Of a DNA stretch of 64,000 nt, positions 31,089 through 41,704 are shown in pieces. The stretch lies in the NCBI GenBank assembly GCA_027320425.1, contig DAHVLJ010000021.1, forward strand, positions 1-64,000, read 5' to 3'. Numbering within the stretch: position 1 is the stretch's first letter; each line of letters starts with the position of its first letter. The notes under the pieces are model-generated. The model was not told the origin of the DNA and did not search any database. It saw only the letters and a list, made by a program, of their open reading frames with translations. The position numbers and the translations under genes are program-made. The stretch is from Nitrososphaerota archaeon (GTDB taxonomy: Archaea > Thermoproteota > Nitrososphaeria > Nitrososphaerales > Gagatemarchaeaceae).

Positions 31089-31847
31089 CTAGGTCACCCT
31101 CGTCCCGTCTGTAAGGAAGATGTCCGCTTCCTCAAGGCTAACCGACCTTGAGGAGAGGACCGGGCCAAACTCGAACGACTTGCTTCTGTTGATTGGCTGT
31201 CCCCCTACGAGCCTGTTGAACGGGGGCATGACCGTCAATTTTCCAGTCCCCCTCAGCTTAGACTTGTAGCCCGCTCCTTCCATCAGCTCCCCCACCTCAT
31301 ACTCCGCGGTCACCCAGACTGACTCCCTGCTCCTGGTGCCGAGCGAGTCGCGCATCTCGTAGGTGAAGTGTGAGTGGCCGATTACCAGGTTCCTGGTGGC
31401 AATCGCCTCCTCTGACGGCCATGCGTGACCGTGGGCCACCCCGATCTTGTCCTTCCCGCTGCCTAGGACGGCCCCATGGGAAGGGTCTAGCTTCACCCGC
31501 GTCGGGAGGACGGTCTTGATGTTGCCGTCATGGTTCCCAGGGACAACTTCTACAGCTTCGAACAAATCGAGCATCGTGTCGAAGAACCACGGGACCGCGC
31601 CCCAGTCGATGTCTTCCACCTTTCCGACGGTGTGTTTGACGTCTCCTAACACCGCCAGCCTGCTCGCCTTGTACTCATCTGCCATCCGCTTTACCCTCTC
31701 CACCATCTTGACCGTGTAGGCGGGGAGCCTGAACCCTTTTTTCGCCATCTCCTTCTCCAACCCAAGGTGCAGGTCGGAGATCAGCAGCGTCCTGCTCTCC
31801 GGAGTGGAGAATACCAGCGCGGCTTCGCCGGGAACTATCTTCAACAA
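31089..31847 (-). CDS. Calcineurin-like metallophosphoesterase
   Basis: 252-residue metallophosphoesterase. Metal-site motifs in order: LLISDLHLGLEKEM (D-x-H), AVLGDVKHTVG (GD), VVPGNHDGNI (GNHD), GVAHGHAWP and VIGHSHF. It belongs to the archaeal COG1407-type ICC-like phosphoesterases, often encoded next to Lhr-type helicases and linked by inference to nucleic acid metabolism. Here it lies immediately downstream of a hypothetical gene and Lhr1 on the same strand, supporting that link. Confidence 0.85.
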   Translation of the reverse strand: MLKIVPGEAALVFSTPESRTLLISDLHLGLEKEMAKKGFRLPAYTVKMVERVKRMADEYKASRLAVLGDVKHTVGKVEDIDWGAVPWFFDTMLDLFEAVEVVPGNHDGNIKTVLPTRVKLDPSHGAVLGSGKDKIGVAHGHAWPSEEAIATRNLVIGHSHFTYEMRDSLGTRSRESVWVTAEYEVGELMEGAGYKSKLRGTGKLTVMPPFNRLVGGQPINRSKSFEFGPVLSSRSVSLEEADIFLTDGTRVT

Positions 31848-31848
31848 A

Positions 31849-32532
31849 CTACGCTATCAACGGCAGCACTTGCGCGTCGATGAAGCTCTTGAACTCTGAG
31901 AGTTCCATCTTGCTGAACCCAGTAAGAATGCAGTTCCTCGTGAGCCCGAAAACGTAGCCGTATGCTTTGCTCTTGAAGACAATGTACCAGAGCTTTCCGT
32001 GGGTGAGGTAGTCACTGTACAAACTGGTGTTCCCCAGCTCGGCTCCGTAAAGCGAGAGCTTGCTTATGTTAGGGAGGTCCACGTCAGAATAGAATATCAC
32101 CTTGGTGTCCTCGAAGTTGGCTTCATGGAACTTCCTGAGGGTCTCAGGATCTATCCTCGCCTCGACCACCTGTCCGAGGCTCATGAACACCGCCTTGCTC
32201 ATCTCGTTGGCGATGTTGTTCGCCCGGCTCTTCTTATCATAGACAGTCAGGAACATCCTGTCCTTGTGCATGCTGAATGTGAATGGCGCGTCATAGGTCC
32301 TAGGGACTGGCACCGGCTCACCCCTATGAGGGACCACGAAAACCGAGTCGAACGAGAACTTCCCTTCAAGTGACCCCTTGCCTACGCTCAGGTCGGTGAT
32401 CTCAGAGACCAGCTTGAACTCCTTGTCTTCGACGCTCGTCTCCGTCTCTATCCTGAATGACTTCAGCTTGTCAGCTAGGGTGTCGATTTCGTAGTTTTCT
32501 CTTACGAGGAAGACTTTCCCAGCAAGAACCAT
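31849..32532 (-). CDS. Conserved hypothetical protein, unknown fold
   Basis: 227 residues, no domain recognised. It is a soluble alpha/beta protein without signal peptide or membrane helix. The C-terminal third is rich in aromatic beta strands (LWYIVFKSKAYGYVFGLTRNCIL), and the middle carries DRMFLTVYDKKSRANNIANEMSK. It abuts the phosphoesterase gene (one-base gap) and follows Lhr1 by 36 bases, so it is probably in the same transcript as the helicase. The position suggests a DNA-repair or processing accessory, but that is inference only. Confidence 0.6.
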   Translation of the reverse strand: MVLAGKVFLVRENYEIDTLADKLKSFRIETETSVEDKEFKLVSEITDLSVGKGSLEGKFSFDSVFVVPHRGEPVPVPRTYDAPFTFSMHKDRMFLTVYDKKSRANNIANEMSKAVFMSLGQVVEARIDPETLRKFHEANFEDTKVIFYSDVDLPNISKLSLYGAELGNTSLYSDYLTHGKLWYIVFKSKAYGYVFGLTRNCILTGFSKMELSEFKSFIDAQVLPLIA

Positions 32533-32568: not shown

Positions 32569-35412
32569 TCAGCTTCCCCAGTACTGACGCGTGGTGACAA
32601 AGCGTATCTTCGCCTCGAGCAGGTCCCTGTAGAAAGCTTCTTCGTCGTCATGCATCTCAGCCAGAATCCTGGATGCCGTCTGAGGACCGATCCCATACAC
32701 CGTCTGTGCGACGACCGCCTTCTTCCCATAAGAAAGGACCAAGTCTGCACCCCGTCTGGCTCTTGAGAGCTCGGCCCGCTCTTCTTCACTCAGGTTTCCC
32801 TTTGTCTCGCGTTTCTTGATCAGGTCTGCTAGCTTCGCCGTCCCCCAGTAGCATGGGACGAGCAGTCCAGAGCCGCAGGCAGGACACCTCGGCTCCTCTG
32901 CCAGATCGCCGACCGTCGTCTGCGTCTGTCCCGCCCCGCACTTCACGCAGAGGAGGCTCACCTCTGTACCAAAGATGCTTGCCTTCATCCTCTGGTAAGA
33001 CGACTTTCCGAGCGAATCCGGTGCTACCGCCTCTGGGACCTCGAGATATCTGTAGAGGAGGTTGTAGGCTATGGGGGTGGGCCTGTCTCCCGCTAGGAAC
33101 GTCTCGACGGCGATCCCGCCTTCCGCCACCCTTGTCAGGATCTGTTTCCCGCGCTCCATGTCGATCAGGTCCCTCCCTGTTTCTTGGAGGGCTTCTTCGA
33201 ATATCGGCGTCTTCTCGAACCTGGTCGGCAGCGAGCACAGGTTGGGGTGTGCGATGAGCTTTCCTCGCTTGAGCGCTCCGAACCTCTCGGCGACGAACTT
33301 CACCCTGGCAGGGAACGGGAAGTTCCTTTGGGCGGCCACTGCGTAGGTCCGCTCAAGCTGTTCCGGAGAAAGCCCCATAAGCTCCTTGGAGATCGCCTTC
33401 AAATCTAGGTCTTCCGTGTCGGTGGTGAGCTCCAACAGGAGCCTGTATCCGTCAAGCCACCATACCCTGACAAGCCCGCGCCTGGAAAGTATCTCTTCGA
33501 ACACGTATGCGAACGTCCTGTTAACGGATTCACCGAAGCAAAGATGCACGACGAGATATCGGCCGAACCCCTCAAACAGGACGAGCTTGTCAGATGGGAC
33601 GGGTGCGCCCATCTTCTTGTGCTCGTCAATCTCGTCCACTACAAGGGACCTGGACGCCGCTTCTCCAGGTATCCGCTTTTCCACTCTCTCCACCGCTTCT
33701 GCTCCTGCATCCAGGGCTTCAGAGATCTCCCTCCTGAGCCTCCCTGTCTCCAAAGCGAGTTCGAAGGGGATGGGGAGCATCTCCCCGTCCCACCCGGGAA
33801 CGGCGGCCAGGGGGTCCTCCACGGGGGTGACGTAGATCTTCCTGTCGTCCGATATCTGTTCTATCTGCCACACCTTTCCCTTTATGATGAAATGGACCCC
33901 CACCTTTGCCCGAAGGAGCACGAACTCCTCCCCGAGTATCCCTACCGTCTGGTTCGAAGAGACATCCACCACAAGATACCTGGTCTCATCTGGTATCATC
34001 GACAGGTTCTCGTAGTAATACTCTCTCGTCAGCCTCGTCCTCGAGAGAGTGTTCCCGTCCAACTTGACCTTCCTTAGCTCTGAGAGATACGTCGCCGTGC
34101 GCAGGAACGCGTCCTCGGCGAGGCTGCTGAACGGGGCCGCCTTTCTTACTTCGACGAGCATGTTCTCGACTTCCATGGTCTCAAAATCCATCAGGTACCC
34201 AGCAATCTGGTGCGCTAGGACGTCAAGCGAGTTGGCGTAGGGACGGGTGGGTTCTATCTTTCCCAGTGCCGCCGAGTTGATGCTCGCGGACGACTCGAGA
34301 ATGTCATCGGCCGACACGGACACCAACACTCCCTTCGAGACCCTGCCAAGCCTGTGTCCGCTCCTCCCCACCCGCTGCACAAGGCTCGTCACCTGCCGCG
34401 GAGACATGTATTGTACGACTAGGTCGACGGACCCCACGTCTATCCCGAGTTCCAAGGTGCTCGTGCAGACGAGCGCCTTCAGCTCTCCCGACTTGAACGC
34501 CTGCTCCACCCGCTCACGCTCCTCCCTGGGAAGGGAACCGTGGTGGACCCCGACATCACTTCTCAGCCTGGCGAGCTTCTCTCCCATCATTTCGGCGAGA
34601 GTCCTGCTGTTGACGAAGATCAGGGTCGAACTGTGCTGGTCGATAAGGGAGTTGATCCTGGAAAGCCTGGCCGCCAGGTCCGGTGCGGAATAGGTATCCT
34701 TTGCAGCCGACTGGTTCGACTGGTCGGGGACTGGGTACTCTATCGAGTACATGAACTCCTTCGGGACGTCGGCTTTCACGATGGTCCTCGACCGCTCTCC
34801 AAAGAGAAACTTCGCGGCGACCTCGGGGGTGCCTACGGTGGCCGAAAGCGCCACCAGCTGGAACTTGGGCGCCACCTTCCTCAGCCTCTGAAGCCCTACG
34901 CTCAGCTGCACCCCTCGTTTGCTCTCGACCAGGTTGTGGAGCTCGTCCACGACGACCGCCTTCAGGTGCGAGAGGTTGTCCCTCATCCTCCTCCCCGGGA
35001 GGATTGCCTGAAGCGTCTCGGGGGTGGTTACAAGCACGTCAGGCGGGTGCGAAGACTGCTTCGCCCTCTGGGCCTGAGGGGTATCACCATGCCTGATGTC
35101 GACCGTGAGTCCGAGCTTCCCGCACCAAACCTGCAACCGTTTCAGCATGTCCCTGTTCAGGGCGCGCATGGGGGTGATGTAGAGCAGCGAGATGCCTTCC
35201 CCATGGCCTTCAAGCACGAGCCTGCTCAGAAGCGGGAGGAGAGCAGCCTCTGTCTTTCCCGATCCGGTAGGGGCAACGACCATCACATCTTCCCCCTTCG
35301 AGACTAAGGGCCAAGCCTTGGCCTGAGGCGGCGTAGGCTCCATTATCCCAGTCTCGGCAAGGAATCCCCTCACCGCAGGCGCGAGGAACTCGAAGGCCGC
35401 TTCAGAAGGCAA
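32569..35412 (-). CDS. lhr1: Lhr-type SF2 DNA helicase, copy 1
   Basis: Large superfamily 2 3'-5' helicase. Walker A is VVAPTGSGKTEAALLP and motif II is VVVDELHNL. Motif III is ALSATVGTP. Motif VI is QRVGRSGHRLG. The winged-helix and Lhr-core domain follows, and a CxxC...CxxC zinc-ribbon-like insertion near the C-terminus reads LLCVKCGAGQTQ...RCPACGSG. A terminal helix-hairpin region resembles ERCC4/HhH modules (VYGIGPQTASRILAEMHDDEEAF). The frame is open to 35577, but residues before LPSEAAFEFLAPAV look random. TTG 35412 lies 28 bases from a minus-strand CTTAAATC TATA element. Confidence 0.9.
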   Translation of the reverse strand: MPSEAAFEFLAPAVRGFLAETGIMEPTPPQAKAWPLVSKGEDVMVVAPTGSGKTEAALLPLLSRLVLEGHGEGISLLYITPMRALNRDMLKRLQVWCGKLGLTVDIRHGDTPQAQRAKQSSHPPDVLVTTPETLQAILPGRRMRDNLSHLKAVVVDELHNLVESKRGVQLSVGLQRLRKVAPKFQLVALSATVGTPEVAAKFLFGERSRTIVKADVPKEFMYSIEYPVPDQSNQSAAKDTYSAPDLAARLSRINSLIDQHSSTLIFVNSRTLAEMMGEKLARLRSDVGVHHGSLPREERERVEQAFKSGELKALVCTSTLELGIDVGSVDLVVQYMSPRQVTSLVQRVGRSGHRLGRVSKGVLVSVSADDILESSASINSAALGKIEPTRPYANSLDVLAHQIAGYLMDFETMEVENMLVEVRKAAPFSSLAEDAFLRTATYLSELRKVKLDGNTLSRTRLTREYYYENLSMIPDETRYLVVDVSSNQTVGILGEEFVLLRAKVGVHFIIKGKVWQIEQISDDRKIYVTPVEDPLAAVPGWDGEMLPIPFELALETGRLRREISEALDAGAEAVERVEKRIPGEAASRSLVVDEIDEHKKMGAPVPSDKLVLFEGFGRYLVVHLCFGESVNRTFAYVFEEILSRRGLVRVWWLDGYRLLLELTTDTEDLDLKAISKELMGLSPEQLERTYAVAAQRNFPFPARVKFVAERFGALKRGKLIAHPNLCSLPTRFEKTPIFEEALQETGRDLIDMERGKQILTRVAEGGIAVETFLAGDRPTPIAYNLLYRYLEVPEAVAPDSLGKSSYQRMKASIFGTEVSLLCVKCGAGQTQTTVGDLAEEPRCPACGSGLLVPCYWGTAKLADLIKKRETKGNLSEEERAELSRARRGADLVLSYGKKAVVAQTVYGIGPQTASRILAEMHDDEEAFYRDLLEAKIRFVTTRQYWGS

Positions 35413-35532
35413 CTGCGGTGATTGGGCTCTCCGGCGATTTAAGGTATGGCGACAGGGGGGTCGGCGAAAGTGATTCCGGCTCTCTCGGTCAGCAATGTCT
35501 AAATGCGCCCGAGGTCCCCGAGCCACCGAAGC

Positions 35533-37539
35533 TTGTCCCGCAGCGTCAAAGAGGTCTCTCAGGAGAGGCCTGCTCACCTTACGACGGTCAAGGAGATCAT
35601 CCTTGAGAACTTCATGAGCTACGAATACGCGAGAATCCCGCTCCGTGAAGGATTGAACCTCATCGTGGGTCCCAACGGCGCAGGCAAGTCATCGGTCCTG
35701 CTGGCCATATCGGTGGCTTTCGGGCAGGCATACACTGAGCGCTCGCGGAAGCTGTCTGACCTGATCCGAAGAGGGAAGGAGATAGCGAGGGTCTCCTTGG
35801 TGTTCGACAACTCTGCGAAAGCGGGCCGGCGTCCCATACCATACTCGAAGTCCGACACCTTCATGCTCAGCCGATACCTCAGGCGCGACGGGTCGTACTG
35901 GTTCGAGGCAGACTACAAGGAGATCGACAAGAGCGAAGTGGTCAGACTGCTCAGGGAATTCGGCATCAACCCAGACAACCTTCTGATAATCATGCACCAG
36001 GGGATGATCGAGGAGTTGGGCGCGGTCTCTCCCCAGGACAGGCTGAGGATGGTAGAGGAGGCGGTGGGGTTCTCAGAATACAGACAGCGCATAATTCTCG
36101 CGGAGCAGGAGCTCAGCGGGCTCGTTGGCGAGGAGAGCTCCCTCCTTCAACTGATAGACAACGCAAACCAGGCGCTCGAGTACTGGAAGCAAGTCTATGA
36201 CAGATACCAGGAGAAGCGCAGGCAGATTGAGCACCGGGACCTGCTCTCGAAGGAGCTCCTGTGGGCGACAGAGGCGAAGCTGAACAAGTCGCTCCAGGCC
36301 GCGGAAGAAAAGATCATGGCGAAGAACAGGGCCCTTGAGGACCTGAAGTCGCAACAGACCGAGGTCACGAAGGACGCGGAGCAGACGCACCAGACCCTCC
36401 TGGACAAGCAAGTGGAGCTCCGTAAGCTGTACTATGCCCTGGTTAGGGCCGAATCTGAGAAGTCGAAAGACGAATCGGCGAAGGAAGCATATCGTTCCAT
36501 CAAGGAGGACCTAGCCGGGCTCTCGAACACAATTGACGAACTCCTCGCCAAAGGCGGTGATAAGAGCGCGAAGCGGCTCAAAGAGCTTGCCGACTACATC
36601 GAGAAGAAGGGCGAGGCGGCTGAGGAAGACGCGCGGCGGAGGAAAGGAGAGCTCGACAGGGAGGTCTCGTCTTTGCAGCCCGAGATAACAAGGACAGAGG
36701 ACCTGATCAAGCGGACGACCGAGAGTTACGTCTCGTTCAGGGTCAAGGCCGAGGTACTCTCCTACAGGATCAGGGTGACCGAATCCGACCTCCACGACCT
36801 TGAGCGCAGCGCCAAGGAGTACAAGACGGAGCTCGACGGGATGGCCCCCCTGCTCGAGAAGGCGGGGGTGAAGATGGAGACGACGAGACAGCCGTACGAA
36901 GTCTCGGAAGAGCTGAAGCTCGTCTCTGCGCATATCCAGAAGATGCAGGACGTCCCGGACGACGCGGAAAAGATCTACAACGACTACTCCGGGAACATAG
37001 AGGAGTTGAAGGTGAAGCTTGCCAAGCTTCAGGAGAACAAGAAGTCGATGCTGGTCGAACTACAGGCACGAAAGGAGATCTGGAAGGACGCGATGGAGAA
37101 CCTCGTGGAGTCTGTAGATCCCGCCTACCAGGCGGTCCTCTCGGCCGCAGACGCCAGCGGGTTCATCAAATTCGAACAGGCGGACACCATCGAGGACGCC
37201 GGGTTCGACCTCTACGTGGGCTTCAGGGGCGGCGCGCCAACAACCCTCGACCCATTCACCCAGAGCGGGGGAGAGAGATCAGTGGCTCTCATGGCATTCA
37301 TACTCTCGCTCCAGGGAAGAATCGTCTCTCCCCTGCGAGCCCTGGACGAGTTCGACATCCACATGGACCCCAAGAACAGGGAGGCGATGTTCAAGATGAT
37401 TCTCTCTCAGATGAGGCAGAGGGAATCGTCCCAATACATCGTCATCACTCCATCCATACTCACGGTGTTCGACAAGAGCGCCCACGTGATCACGGTACAG
37501 TCCGTGCACGGGGGGTCAGAGGTCAAGGAGCTGAAGTAG
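35533..37539 (+). CDS. SMC6-like ATPase with short arms
   Basis: ABC-type SMC ATPase. Walker A is LIVGPNGAGKSSVLL and the Q-loop region is IIMHQGMIEELG. The C-terminal signature is QSGGERSVALMAFILSL and Walker B is SPLRALDEFDIHMDPKNRE. LDEFDxxMD followed by NR closely matches the SMC6 Walker B rather than condensin-type LDEVDAALD. Between the lobes lies only about 320 residues of coiled coil, with no CxxC zinc hook and no recognisable hinge, so it is far shorter than a 1100-1200 residue SMC. First in a tight operon with a kleisin-like and a MAGE-like gene. The start is ambiguous: ATG 35503 or TTG 35533; a TCTAAATG element near 35495 favours the latter. Confidence 0.85.
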   Translation: MSRSVKEVSQERPAHLTTVKEIILENFMSYEYARIPLREGLNLIVGPNGAGKSSVLLAISVAFGQAYTERSRKLSDLIRRGKEIARVSLVFDNSAKAGRRPIPYSKSDTFMLSRYLRRDGSYWFEADYKEIDKSEVVRLLREFGINPDNLLIIMHQGMIEELGAVSPQDRLRMVEEAVGFSEYRQRIILAEQELSGLVGEESSLLQLIDNANQALEYWKQVYDRYQEKRRQIEHRDLLSKELLWATEAKLNKSLQAAEEKIMAKNRALEDLKSQQTEVTKDAEQTHQTLLDKQVELRKLYYALVRAESEKSKDESAKEAYRSIKEDLAGLSNTIDELLAKGGDKSAKRLKELADYIEKKGEAAEEDARRRKGELDREVSSLQPEITRTEDLIKRTTESYVSFRVKAEVLSYRIRVTESDLHDLERSAKEYKTELDGMAPLLEKAGVKMETTRQPYEVSEELKLVSAHIQKMQDVPDDAEKIYNDYSGNIEELKVKLAKLQENKKSMLVELQARKEIWKDAMENLVESVDPAYQAVLSAADASGFIKFEQADTIEDAGFDLYVGFRGGAPTTLDPFTQSGGERSVALMAFILSLQGRIVSPLRALDEFDIHMDPKNREAMFKMILSQMRQRESSQYIVITPSILTVFDKSAHVITVQSVHGGSEVKELK

Positions 37540-38298
37540 TTGGGGCAGACCAAGCTCGACGACTACCTCAGGGTGATAGAGCTCTGCAGAGACGTGGAGA
37601 CGAGCAGCGCGAATCCGTTCGACGTGGACATCAGAGAGAAGATCCTTCTCCTCAAACAGAGGCTCCCGGAGCTGAAACTCCTAGACGAGCTTCTGGTCGA
37701 TTCAGAGGCCATGCTGGAGCTAGCCCAGATAGTGAAGCTCCAGGACCAGTGGCTGAAGCAGAGAGCTAGCGCCCTCTACATCGACCCGCTCCTCATCCAG
37801 TTGAAGCTCAAGCTCCTCCCCAAGGACGCGCTTTCTGACGCGTTCGTCAAGAGCTGGCACCCAATAGCGCAGGTGGACCAGCTGTCCCCGAAGGGGCTCG
37901 AGAGGGCATTCGTCTACTGGCGCGAGCTTACCCCGTTGTCTGAAAGGTTCAAGGACCAGTTCGGGAGCTACGGCACCAAGCCCGGCGTGCTCGACTACAA
38001 GGACCTCGTTAGCCTCGGGGTGTTCACCAAGGAGGAGTTCGAGATCGGCCTTAACCGCTTATACGACGAGCTGATGCAAAAGTCAAACGGGGAGTGGGTC
38101 GACTATCGTCAGTTCGTCGGAGACGAGAGCTATGAGGTCAAGGTAAGGCGGGCGTATCTCCTCGCGTTCCTCATCAGCGAAGGCAGGGCTCTGCTGAAGA
38201 CCGAGCCGCTCACGGGGAAGATCTGGACGATGGCGGCCGCCGAGAAGGTGAAAGGCGCGCCGAAGTCAGTGGCGATTTCCATCACGGGGGAGAACTGA
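37540..38298 (+). CDS. Kleisin-like subunit of the SMC6-like complex
   Basis: 252 residues starting at TTG directly after the SMC stop codon. The N-terminal helices (LLVDSEAMLELAQIVKL... then LIQLKLKLLP) resemble the ScpA neck-binding region, where a helical pair ends in LL/LP. The C-terminus AYLLAFLISEGRALLKTEPLTGKIW closely mirrors the ScpA/Rad21 C-terminal winged helix (alanine/leucine helix, GK-basic turn, then a strand with an acidic-aromatic step). Position between an SMC and a tandem winged-helix protein is where kleisins sit. The family call is my inference from pattern and context, not a profile match. Confidence 0.6.
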   Translation: MGQTKLDDYLRVIELCRDVETSSANPFDVDIREKILLLKQRLPELKLLDELLVDSEAMLELAQIVKLQDQWLKQRASALYIDPLLIQLKLKLLPKDALSDAFVKSWHPIAQVDQLSPKGLERAFVYWRELTPLSERFKDQFGSYGTKPGVLDYKDLVSLGVFTKEEFEIGLNRLYDELMQKSNGEWVDYRQFVGDESYEVKVRRAYLLAFLISEGRALLKTEPLTGKIWTMAAAEKVKGAPKSVAISITGEN

Positions 38299-38858
38299 TG
38301 GAGTCCGAAACTGCCGACAGGGCGCTGCTCGAGCGGAAGGTCAGGCGCGCGTTCCAGGTGCTCGTCCTCCAGCGAGGGCGTAACCCCGGTGTGAAGGGGT
38401 GGGAGATGAAGAGGCACCTGGGGAGGGAGTACAGGAAGGTACTGGAGGTGCTCTCCGAGGACGTTTCCCCGATGGGGCTTGAGGTCTTTGAGGTGAAGGG
38501 GCCCGACGGCACAGACGACTCCTCCAGGTTCTTGCTGAGGTTCAGGGACCCTCCGACCATAAGCGAAGCCGAGATGTCAGGGATACGCATCGATGACCTC
38601 GCGGTCCTCGCTGCAACAATAGCGTTCGTCAACTCGAAGTCGGGGCGGGTCGCCAGGCGTGAGGTCGAACAGTTCCTTCGCGAAAAATTCCCGAAATGGC
38701 GGGTCGACTACTCCCTTGACAGATACGTCAAGAGGGGTTATCTCGACCAGGACGACAGGGGGATGGTCCACATCGGGTGGAGGACGAGAGCCGAAGTAGA
38801 CGAGAAGACCCTGATGACGATGATACTTTCGAGGGCTCAGGAAGCCACAAAGAAGTAG
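38298..38858 (+). CDS. MAGE/Nse3-like tandem winged-helix (kite) protein
   Basis: 186 residues with two winged-helix units. The first is at about 8-70 (LLERKVRRAFQVLVLQRG...). The second is at about 95-165 (LAVLAATIAFVNSKSGRVARREVEQFL, then VDYSLDRYVKRGYLDQDD, then HIGWRTRAEVDEK). The helix, YL-ending wing and W-G/R-A-E sequence recall the MAGE homology domain of Nse3, a kite subunit that binds kleisin and DNA in SMC5/6. Start ATG overlaps the preceding stop (TGATG). Its 3' end overlaps lhr2 by 22 bases. Confidence 0.6.
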   Translation: MESETADRALLERKVRRAFQVLVLQRGRNPGVKGWEMKRHLGREYRKVLEVLSEDVSPMGLEVFEVKGPDGTDDSSRFLLRFRDPPTISEAEMSGIRIDDLAVLAATIAFVNSKSGRVARREVEQFLREKFPKWRVDYSLDRYVKRGYLDQDDRGMVHIGWRTRAEVDEKTLMTMILSRAQEATKK

Positions 38859-41704
38859 CGCCTGCGTAGCGCTTCCCTCTCGCCTTCTATCGCCAGTTCA
38901 ATCACATCCGTCCCTTCCTTCCTCATCTTGGCCGCAAGGGCCGCCGCATCGGCAAGCCTGATCCCCCTGCCTGCCATGAGGATATCAGCCGAGTGGCCGT
39001 ATTCAGACCTGAGTTCCGCAGACTTGCGGAGCGCCTCCACAGCCTTCAGCTTACTCCCACGGATATCAGACCTGCTCCTCGTCTTCATTGCCAGGGAGAA
39101 GACGTTCTCGTAGGAATCAGTGGAAAGCCCGACGGCAGGTTTGCCGCAGCTGGGGCAACTGCCGAGCCCCTCCAGGTCTGATACCTTTCTCAGCTCTAGG
39201 AAGTTCCAGCAGTTGGTGCAGACAGCCACCAGGAACGTCTCGTTGATCCTCGCCCTTGTGGACTGCTTGAGGAGCGCACGGAGCCTCTCCGGAGACACAA
39301 TCTCTCCTCTTCTGCTGATTTCCTCGACACCGATGCGTGCGATGGGGGTCAGCCCCTCATACTCGATGAGCCTGACTTCGATGGCTCCTGCGTTGATCTT
39401 CTCCACCACGTCCTTCGCCGCATCCAAGTCGAAGTCGTCGTGGAATATCACGCTCATCGCCTCCTCGTATACCGGTGTGTCCCTGAGCGCCTCGACTATG
39501 CCAGATATTGACACGCTCGCGTAGTCAGCGTCCTTTGCGATGGCCCCGCACTTCTTTCCTGCGTGGATAAGGCGGCGCTTGAAAATCCCGCTCCGCTCCA
39601 CCGCCTTCTCGGTCGCTACCCCGAGGTCCAGCTTGTGTAGTTCCTCCAGGATGGAGAGCACGGCCTTCGGGGCCACGTCTGCCTCGATCACGATTCTGTA
39701 GGGGTCCTGGTGCACGGCCACCGACTGGCCTATCCGCTCCGAGATCTGGTGGCCTATCACTCGCGCCAGAAGCCTGTTCACTCTGTGGCCGAAAGCCGCC
39801 TGGACAACGAGGTATCTGTCCCACTTTTCAATCGTAATCAGTCTCTCAGACGGTATCGGGAGGTTCTCCGCGTACTGCTCCGCCACCTCCTTGAGGGCTT
39901 CCTCCATCGCCTCCCTCGGCACCGGGTAGATCCTGGCAACCTCGTCTAGGAACTTCTCTTCGGTCCCTTTCGCTATTGCCTCCCCGTATCTCCTCCTCAC
40001 GCCGCCTACCTCTGCCGCGACCTCCATCGGGACCGGAATCTCGTCCCCGACCCAGTTGGGGACCGCCCCCGTCGGGTCCTCTTCGGCCTTCACGTACACC
40101 TTGTTGCCGTAGATCTGCTCCACCTTCCAGCACCTCCCTGCCTCCACGAACTTCACGCCTACCTCGCCGTACTCTGACACGAACGCCTCGTCCAGCGTCC
40201 CTACGAAGTTGTCCCCTTCTATCACGAGGTATTGTTTCTCGTCAGGTATCATCGACAGGTTCTCGAAGTAGTAAGAGAAGAGCGGCTTGACGTCTCTCGC
40301 TCTGAACACCTTCCCATCGGATTCGCTGTAATATGCGAGACGTGGGTATCTCTCTCTCATGTACACCAGGACCTTCTTCAGCCTCTCGGCGTCGAGGTCT
40401 GCGAAGGCATAGCTTCTCTTCAGGAGCGACATGATGTCGTCGAAGTTCCAGCTCGGCTGCTCGATGAGGAGCCCGGCGACCTGGTGTATCGCAACGTCGT
40501 ACGGGCTGAACACCGGCTCGAGCGGCTCCAGCTCTCCAACCGCTGACTTCCTGCAAAGGACCGCCGCTTCTAGGGTGTCGTCGGAGTCTTGGGTGATGAC
40601 GAGCCCGTTGGAGACCTGCCCTATCCTGTGCCCGCTCCTTCCGACTCGTTGGATTAGCCTCGTGACCTGCCTCGGTGAGTTGTACTGCACGACGTATTCG
40701 AGGAACCCGATGTCTATGCCGAGCTCGAGGCTGCTAGTACATATCACCCCGAACAGCTTCCCTTCCTTGAGGCTCTTTTCCACCGCCTCTCGGGTCGCCT
40801 TTGAAAGGGAGCTGTGATGGACCGCTATTGGGAAGTTCGGGTCCCAGACCCTGAACCTGCTCGAAAGCGCTTCCGCCTCGGACCGCGTGTTTGTGAATAT
40901 GAGCACCGACCTGTACTTCTCCACCAGCTCGCGGACGGTCCGAAGCCTCGCGGCGACTTCGGGAAAGGAGTAGATCGCGTCGGCGAGGATACGGTCGTCT
41001 CCGGTCGCTGCCGGCACTACGACTTTCAGAGCCAGGCTCTTCTCGACCGGCACCCTGACCACTTCGCACAGGCGCCCCGCGCCGACGAGGAACTGGGCGA
41101 CCTTCTCAGGGGAGCCCACTGTGGCTGAAAGGCCTACGACCTGGAACTCCTTCTCGGCGACGTCCCTCAGCCTCTCCAACCCCACGCTGAGCTGGCTGCC
41201 TCGCTTGTCCTCTGAGAGCTCGTGGACCTCGTCCACCACCACCCACCGCAGCTTCGACAGGTTCTGCCTGATCCTCTTCCCCACGAGAAGTATCTGGAGC
41301 GTCTCCGGAGTAGTGATGAGTATGTCAGGGGGGGCGAAGCTGAGGTTCGTTCTTTCCGCCTGCGAGGAGTCTCCGTGTCTGACCCCGAGCCTGATGTCGA
41401 AACGTTTGCACCACCACTGCATCCTGTCGAGCATATCCCTGTTGAGCGCGCGAAGCGGAGTGATGTACAGCAGTTTGGTCCCCTTCTCCCTCGGTTCTCC
41501 TTCCCTTACCAATGCGTCGAGTATGGGGAGCAGGGCCGCCTCCGTCTTTCCCGTCCCAGTCGGCGCCATTAGGAGGGCGTTCTTCCCAGACCTGACAATC
41601 GGGAGGAGCTTCTCCTGCGGGTCCGTGGGCGCGTCGAACCCTCTCTCCTTCAAAGCAGCGAGCAAAGGGGGCGACAGCAACTGGAACGCGTTCTGGGTGC
41701 TCAA
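38837..41704 (-). CDS. lhr2: Lhr-type SF2 DNA helicase, copy 2
   Basis: 955-residue paralog of the first Lhr. Walker A is LLMAPTGTGKTEAALLP, and motif II is VVVDEVHEL (DEVH rather than DELH). The SAT motif is GLSATVGSP and motif VI is QRVGRSGHRIG, followed by the winged-helix and Lhr core. The C-terminus has a zinc ribbon CTNCWNFLE...CPSCGKPA and ends in FFVAS, without the HhH-like tail of copy 1. Similarity to copy 1 is clear across the whole helicase, but the two have diverged. Start ATG 41704. Confidence 0.9.
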   Translation of the reverse strand: MSTQNAFQLLSPPLLAALKERGFDAPTDPQEKLLPIVRSGKNALLMAPTGTGKTEAALLPILDALVREGEPREKGTKLLYITPLRALNRDMLDRMQWWCKRFDIRLGVRHGDSSQAERTNLSFAPPDILITTPETLQILLVGKRIRQNLSKLRWVVVDEVHELSEDKRGSQLSVGLERLRDVAEKEFQVVGLSATVGSPEKVAQFLVGAGRLCEVVRVPVEKSLALKVVVPAATGDDRILADAIYSFPEVAARLRTVRELVEKYRSVLIFTNTRSEAEALSSRFRVWDPNFPIAVHHSSLSKATREAVEKSLKEGKLFGVICTSSLELGIDIGFLEYVVQYNSPRQVTRLIQRVGRSGHRIGQVSNGLVITQDSDDTLEAAVLCRKSAVGELEPLEPVFSPYDVAIHQVAGLLIEQPSWNFDDIMSLLKRSYAFADLDAERLKKVLVYMRERYPRLAYYSESDGKVFRARDVKPLFSYYFENLSMIPDEKQYLVIEGDNFVGTLDEAFVSEYGEVGVKFVEAGRCWKVEQIYGNKVYVKAEEDPTGAVPNWVGDEIPVPMEVAAEVGGVRRRYGEAIAKGTEEKFLDEVARIYPVPREAMEEALKEVAEQYAENLPIPSERLITIEKWDRYLVVQAAFGHRVNRLLARVIGHQISERIGQSVAVHQDPYRIVIEADVAPKAVLSILEELHKLDLGVATEKAVERSGIFKRRLIHAGKKCGAIAKDADYASVSISGIVEALRDTPVYEEAMSVIFHDDFDLDAAKDVVEKINAGAIEVRLIEYEGLTPIARIGVEEISRRGEIVSPERLRALLKQSTRARINETFLVAVCTNCWNFLELRKVSDLEGLGSCPSCGKPAVGLSTDSYENVFSLAMKTRSRSDIRGSKLKAVEALRKSAELRSEYGHSADILMAGRGIRLADAAALAAKMRKEGTDVIELAIEGEREALRRRYFFVAS

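Follow-up and report, generated by a model that had tools for sequence, protein, structure and literature searches.

A probable minimal Smc5/6-type SMC-kleisin-kite system encoded by a three-gene archaeal operon

The window analysed here is the whole 64,000-nucleotide stretch at positions 1 to 64,000 of contig DAHVLJ010000021.1 (GenBank assembly GCA_027320425.1), from a metagenome-assembled genome of 907 kb and 53.5% completeness whose source is a little-known soil-type archaeon of the Nitrososphaerota. Its plus strand holds three abutting open reading frames (ORFs), encoding an SMC ATPase, a protein of 252 residues and a protein of 186 residues, which we refer to as the trio. Sequence profiles and structure models make it very probable that the three together form one Smc5/6-type system, composed of an SMC protein, an Nse4-like kleisin and an Nse1/Nse3-like kite. 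To our knowledge, Smc5/6, a ring-shaped DNA-guarding machine, is so far known with all of its parts from eukaryotes only.

The ATPase gene (35533..37539, +) is predicted to encode 668 residues from a TTG codon; the frame is also open from an ATG at 35503, and because the TTG is kept in many orthologues we regard it as the more likely start. The kleisin gene (37540..38298, +) begins with a TTG directly after the SMC stop codon, a gap of 0 bp, and overlaps the kite gene (38298..38858, +) by one base in the sequence TGATG, a spacing of -1 bp. An earlier reading of this DNA, made from the sequence alone, had described three genes packed with zero or negative spacing, and the coordinates bear this out.

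With the third protein as the query, 43 loci were obtained from 84,980 species genomes, and these fall in Nitrososphaeria, Bathyarchaeota, Candidatus Methylarchaceae and Hadesarchaea. Where the DNA suffices, the order SMC-kleisin-kite is constant among them down to about 40% SMC identity, and conservation of the trio proteins reaches down to 28-45% identity. A neighbourhood survey of archaeal orthologues had been proposed as a check in the sequence-only reading, and it came out in favour, with the order kept in nearly every locus that has enough DNA. In a profile search of 398 phylum-sampled genomes the kite was found in 157, the kleisin in 158 and both in 155; the kleisin lies directly upstream of the kite in 140 of the 144 genomes with coordinates listed for both, and nearly every genome has a single kite match. 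The kite is present in 21 of 28 Hadarchaeota genomes, and neither kite nor kleisin was found in the sampled ammonia-oxidiser-like family f10. The SMC gene is single-copy and carried by nearly all well-assembled genomes of the genus. Conservation of the trio spans two archaeal phyla, and in the genus the trio is core and chromosomal; no relatives turned up when viral contigs were scanned. In family f46 (genomes G162 and G271; loci L144 and L143) two inserted genes part the kleisin from the kite and the SMC gene lies several kb off on the opposite strand, while all three genes are still present. Given that all three are retained where the operon is broken, a functional linkage among them is indicated. 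Since all three proteins are conserved, their gene order is kept and kite and kleisin co-occur, the operon is confirmed as an observation far beyond chance.

Inspection of the ATPase found all of its ABC motifs intact, namely Walker A as GPNGAGKS (35668..35691, +), the ABC signature QSGGERS (37261..37281, +), Walker B and the D-loop as LDEFDIHMDPKNR, with the catalytic glutamate retained (37342..37380, +), and the H-loop as VITPS (37441..37455, +). The signature and Walker B had been picked out in the sequence-only reading, as had a GWR-RAE pattern in the third protein, and all were recovered, the last as GWR-T-RAE. A profile built from 21 orthologues of the ATPase was compared with the PDB and matched ten SMC5/SMC6 chains at 146-157 bits, against 119 bits for the best other SMC and about 35 for Rad50, so that in the proposed profile test against Rad50 the nearest proteins are SMC5 and SMC6 and Rad50 is far behind. 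In the reciprocal control, a profile of canonical SMCs from related genomes (1,164-1,192 residues) gave its highest scores to Pyrococcus and Bacillus Smc and SMC1-4, and no SMC5 or SMC6 occurred in the best 60 of 62 matches at E<=1e-10. Because the control ranks other SMCs first, the preference of the trio ATPase for SMC5/6 is specific. A head-domain tree likewise split SMC5, SMC6 and the trio from canonical SMC and hook proteins (support 98.3/99), and constraining the trio ATPase to group with either canonical SMC or hook proteins was rejected, modestly, in approximately unbiased (AU) tests (p=0.03); neither the tree nor these tests settled whether its sister is SMC5, SMC6 or both. Among the proteins compared, only the trio ATPase, SMC5 and SMC6 have a Thr-Pro H-loop, with Thr-Leu or Thr-His in canonical SMCs and Thr-His or Ser-His in hook proteins. 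These comparisons support a placement of the ATPase in the SMC5/6 branch, about equally near to SMC5 and SMC6 as judged from its sequence. The original description of an SMC6-type ATPase therefore stands as to the branch, by the PDB profile ranking, and falls as to SMC6 in particular, SMC5 being as near.

The sequence-only reading was silent on a missing hinge. In trio ATPases from five lineages no match to SMC_hinge was found at E<=10, whereas the canonical SMCs of related genomes match it at 65-69 bits; the alignment of yeast SMC5 with the ATPase profile jumps residues from about 323 to 657, the hinge region, and the coiled-coil tip, or apex, is the stretch of lowest conservation in the ATPase. 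The sequence contains no cysteine and hence no zinc hook. The ATPase thus reads as a short-armed SMC without a hinge.

Searched as single sequences against Pfam, NCBIfam and PADLOC, the kleisin and kite of the window gave nothing useful, and family profiles were therefore needed for both. The kleisin profile, built from 40 orthologues, matched only Nse4 chains in the PDB at E <0.001, with EID3, an Nse4 paralogue, at 1.4e-4 and yeast Nse4 at 3e-4, and the alignments to these chains span the C-terminal winged helix. Pfam Nse4_C was matched in 34 of the 40 members (best 7e-5), and when six whole genomes were searched with Nse4_C no match exceeded the curated cut-off. The AlphaFold 2 (AF2) model shows helices in the N-domain and a winged helix in the C-domain (residues about 153-235; 37996..38244, +), and its six best Foldseek matches in the PDB were C-domains of ScpA, Nse4 from the Smc5/6 holocomplex and Scc1 from cohesin-head structures. 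Between the two domains, a middle segment of about 75 residues (about 79-152) is as conserved as its flanks; its length resembles that of bacterial ScpA (61-72) and is unlike that of most archaeal ScpA (30-47) (PMC7055376). Profile and model together support an Nse4-type kleisin, firmly in the C-domain and weakly in the N-domain. The kleisin-like second gene proposed earlier is upheld, with Nse4 its nearest relative by profile and a C-domain that matches the winged helices of kleisins.

The AF2 model of the third protein (predicted local distance difference test, pLDDT, 85.5) consists of two winged helices, and the chain stops after the second. Foldseek against the PDB placed MAGE-G1/Nse3 first (6.6e-6), followed by chains of Nse1-Nse3-Nse4 (2-4e-5) and then by MukE, JetB and ScpB, the first 21 matches all being kite or MAGE structures. 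Of 38 family members, 4 matched Pfam MAGE (best 3.6e-4) and one matched Pfam Nse1. Of two profiles compared with the PDB, one (A1) gave up to E 10 a sole, marginal match, to an Nse3 at E 0.045, and the other (A4) gave nothing meaningful; the assignment accordingly rests on the fold and the Pfam MAGE matches. The W, R, A and E of the GWR-RAE motif are invariant, and the protein has no cysteine and hence no RING. Model and family matches support a tandem-winged-helix kite of the Nse1/Nse3 (MAGE) type, best read as equidistant from Nse1 and Nse3. This agrees with the two winged helices and the MAGE/Nse3 likeness first proposed for this gene, MAGE/Nse3 and Nse1 being the best structural matches.

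Several points weigh against a single Smc5/6-type system. Eukaryotic sequences are few in the head-domain tree, which is based on 352 columns, and the AU tests reject the alternatives modestly. An ATPase without a hinge departs from the usual architecture of an SMC dimer. The kleisin model is of moderate confidence (pLDDT 70; predicted template modelling score 0.39), its C-domain mostly scoring 77-93, and the sole support for the N-domain is a weak resemblance to ScpA (E 0.18). The window's own kleisin and kite, searched singly, match none of Nse4_C, MAGE and Nse1 in Pfam, so that this evidence is at the level of the family, in which no member passes the curated cut-offs. That the three proteins associate in one complex we infer from their co-occurrence and adjacency, and the ScpA and ScpB of six archaeal pairs did not bind each other (PMC7055376).

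Against this background, three other explanations were considered. The trio might be an anti-plasmid or antiviral system resembling Wadjet or Lamassu, or acting as human Smc5/6 does in silencing extrachromosomal DNA. Such DNA is indeed restricted by kite-type SMC complexes, among them Wadjet and human Smc5/6 (PMC10586767), and the ATPase has generic PADLOC matches (mad3, LmuB). However, PADLOC models match neither the kleisin nor the kite, the operon includes no nuclease or effector gene, and the genes are single-copy, near-universal in the genus and set in a conserved chromosomal context beside a replication-fork helicase; with the viral-contig scan having returned no relative, we consider dedicated immunity unlikely. 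The surveillance of plasmid or viral DNA put forward in the sequence-only reading finds no support in these observations.

It is less likely still that the kleisin and kite are a divergent ScpA and ScpB serving the canonical hinge-bearing SMC, with the short ATPase a separate repair protein. While ScpA (PF02616) escapes detection in related complete genomes that have a canonical SMC, and the kleisin N-domain is weakly ScpA-like, the kleisin profile favours Nse4, the kite favours MAGE, Nse3 and Nse1 over ScpB, and the adjacent ATPase is likewise of the SMC5/6 branch. Moreover, ammonia-oxidising relatives have long SMC ORFs without the trio kleisin or kite, and in Hadarchaeota ScpA and the trio are both present. 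The least probable alternative, to which we give very little credence, is that the ATPase resembles SMC5/6 superficially and is instead akin to Rad50, RecN or ASRP (coalescin/Sph). At about 650 residues it is of ASRP size and below SMC length, and it has generic NCBIfam matches to Rad50 and ASRP, but the ASRP match reaches 42.9 bits where the cut-off is 300, whereas SMC_prok_A scores 171.6. The absence of a zinc hook, the PDB ranking (157 bits for SMC5/6 versus 35 for Rad50) and the Thr-Pro H-loop argue in the same direction.

If the trio is a minimal Smc5/6-type machine, its most likely stoichiometry, by analogy, would be SMC2:kleisin1:kite2 with a homodimeric SMC. By analogy with Smc5/6 and other SMC biology, the kleisin C-domain would cap one SMC head and the N-domain would bind the neck of the other, while a kite dimer would sit on the conserved middle segment and shape the kleisin, as described for the kites of Nse4 (PMC7297730). 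ATP would shut both heads on DNA and the kites would clamp it, so that ATP cycling could drive DNA clamping, translocation or loop growth. Without a hinge, the SMC pair might be joined via the heads and kleisin alone, or via the coiled-coil tips. From gene context, we lean slightly towards a role in repair or maintenance, in which the trio would carry out housekeeping at stalled forks or recombination intermediates, alongside the canonical hinge-bearing SMC and the Lhr fork helicase, and not in dedicated immunity. That the trio is a survivor of the ancestor of eukaryotic Smc5/6, itself a homodimeric, hinge-less SMC2-kleisin-kite2 complex, is a serious possibility that we put a little short of even. 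Were this so, the single SMC and single kite would represent the states that preceded the duplications giving SMC5/SMC6 and Nse1/Nse3, the Smc5/6 core including kleisin and kite would be older than eukaryotes, and the hinge would be dispensable for this class of SMC.

The Lhr-type helicase gene 3' of the kite (38837..41704, -) is convergent with the operon and overlaps the 3' end of the kite gene by 22 bp. In 10 of 16 hand-picked genomes (with 1-3 Lhr genes each), from Nitrososphaeria to Hadarchaeota, the kite is followed immediately on its 3' side by a convergent Lhr-type gene, and archaeal Lhr acts on replication forks (PMC7437997); the helicase is thus a candidate functional partner of the trio. 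Convergence of Lhr with the kite was seen at L110, L111, L115, L116, L121, L124 and L143, deep lineages in two phyla. A second Lhr-type gene (32569..35577, -) is divergent from the operon, and because homology in divergent orthologues begins near residue 50-60 its start is probably near 35400. Adjoining this side, a conserved protein of about 230 residues with no Pfam match (31849-32532, -; L066 2401-3105, -; L068 2502) is encoded close to the SMC gene, or divergently from it, in 12 loci, Hadarchaeota included, and is possibly a further factor of the system; a metallophosphoesterase gene (31089-31847, -) adjoins it and the Lhr gene and recurs in 8 loci. In Bathyarchaeal and related loci the 3' side of the kite is a cell-division neighbourhood, with CdvB/ESCRT-III-like genes identified by weak Snf7 matches (L063 6797-7435, L064 5706-9156, L072 6770-7408 and L129) and, at L064, also a MIT-AAA ATPase resembling Vps4/CdvC.

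Most related genomes have one hinge-bearing SMC besides the trio ATPase, and the trio therefore constitutes a second SMC system. ScpA (PF02616) was undetected in the same-genus genomes G003, G005, G009, G015, G016 and G023, which include complete genomes with a canonical SMC, and the kleisin of the canonical SMC appears from these searches to be missing or very divergent there. In Hadarchaeota, an SMC-like ORF of about 770 residues without a hinge match stands beside ScpA (G468:C31:4153-7089 and G475:C31:6123-9090), which suggests another SMC system that lacks a hinge.

Reports of archaeal SMC5/6-related ATPases date from 2021-22 (Yoshinaga and Inagaki 2021, cited in PMC9389158), and archaeal SMC (Smc-ScpA) complexes have been described as mostly kite-less (PMC7055376). 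A search of the open-access literature, with bioRxiv and most subscription journals outside it, found no description of the trio kleisin, the kite, the operon or the missing hinge. Partners are now proposed for ATPases previously known without any, and the trio places the Nse4 and Nse1/Nse3 families before eukaryotes. Smc5/6 kept kites, and cohesin and condensin use HAWKs; the trio bears on the origin of Smc5/6 and on why kites were kept over HAWKs. The missing hinge questions the need for a hinge-closed ring in every SMC motor, and three archaeal genes offer a simple recombinant system for the core function without SUMO ligase, RING, Nse5/6 loader or hinge.

With eukaryotic Smc5/6 the trio shares heads of the SMC5/6 branch with a Thr-Pro H-loop, an Nse4-type kleisin C-domain and an Nse1/Nse3-type kite. 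The eukaryotic complex has two SMCs and two kites, a hinge on long coiled coils and a RING on Nse1, whereas the operon has one SMC and one kite gene, the ATPase is hinge-less with arms of about 160 residues each way, and the kite has no RING; nor does the operon contain a gene for Nse2 or Nse5/6 (the Nse2 search was limited to the operon and did not extend to the rest of the genome). Since heterodimers, hinge and ligases are absent, we regard the trio as Smc5/6-type and not as a full member. Bacterial Smc-ScpAB resembles it in having a homodimeric SMC, one kleisin and, presumably in the trio, a kite dimer, but combines a hinge-bearing SMC with ScpA (PF02616) and ScpB, while the trio is hinge-less and its kleisin and kite are nearer to Nse4 and Nse1/3. 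Wadjet JetABC(D) and MukBEF likewise keep SMC, kleisin and kite genes together, and the kite fold matches JetB and MukE; the trio SMC, however, is not MukB-like, JetD nuclease is absent, and the trio is a vertically kept core and not part of a defence island. The ASRPs (coalescin ClsN, Sph) are, like the trio ATPase, short archaeal ATPases of the SMC superfamily, and they are mostly zinc-hooked, unlike the cysteine-free trio ATPase with its kleisin and kite genes alongside. The trio ATPase very probably belongs to the archaeal 'SMC5/6-related' group already reported; the open-access literature searched describes the ATPase alone, to which the trio adds a kleisin, a kite, an operon and the missing hinge.

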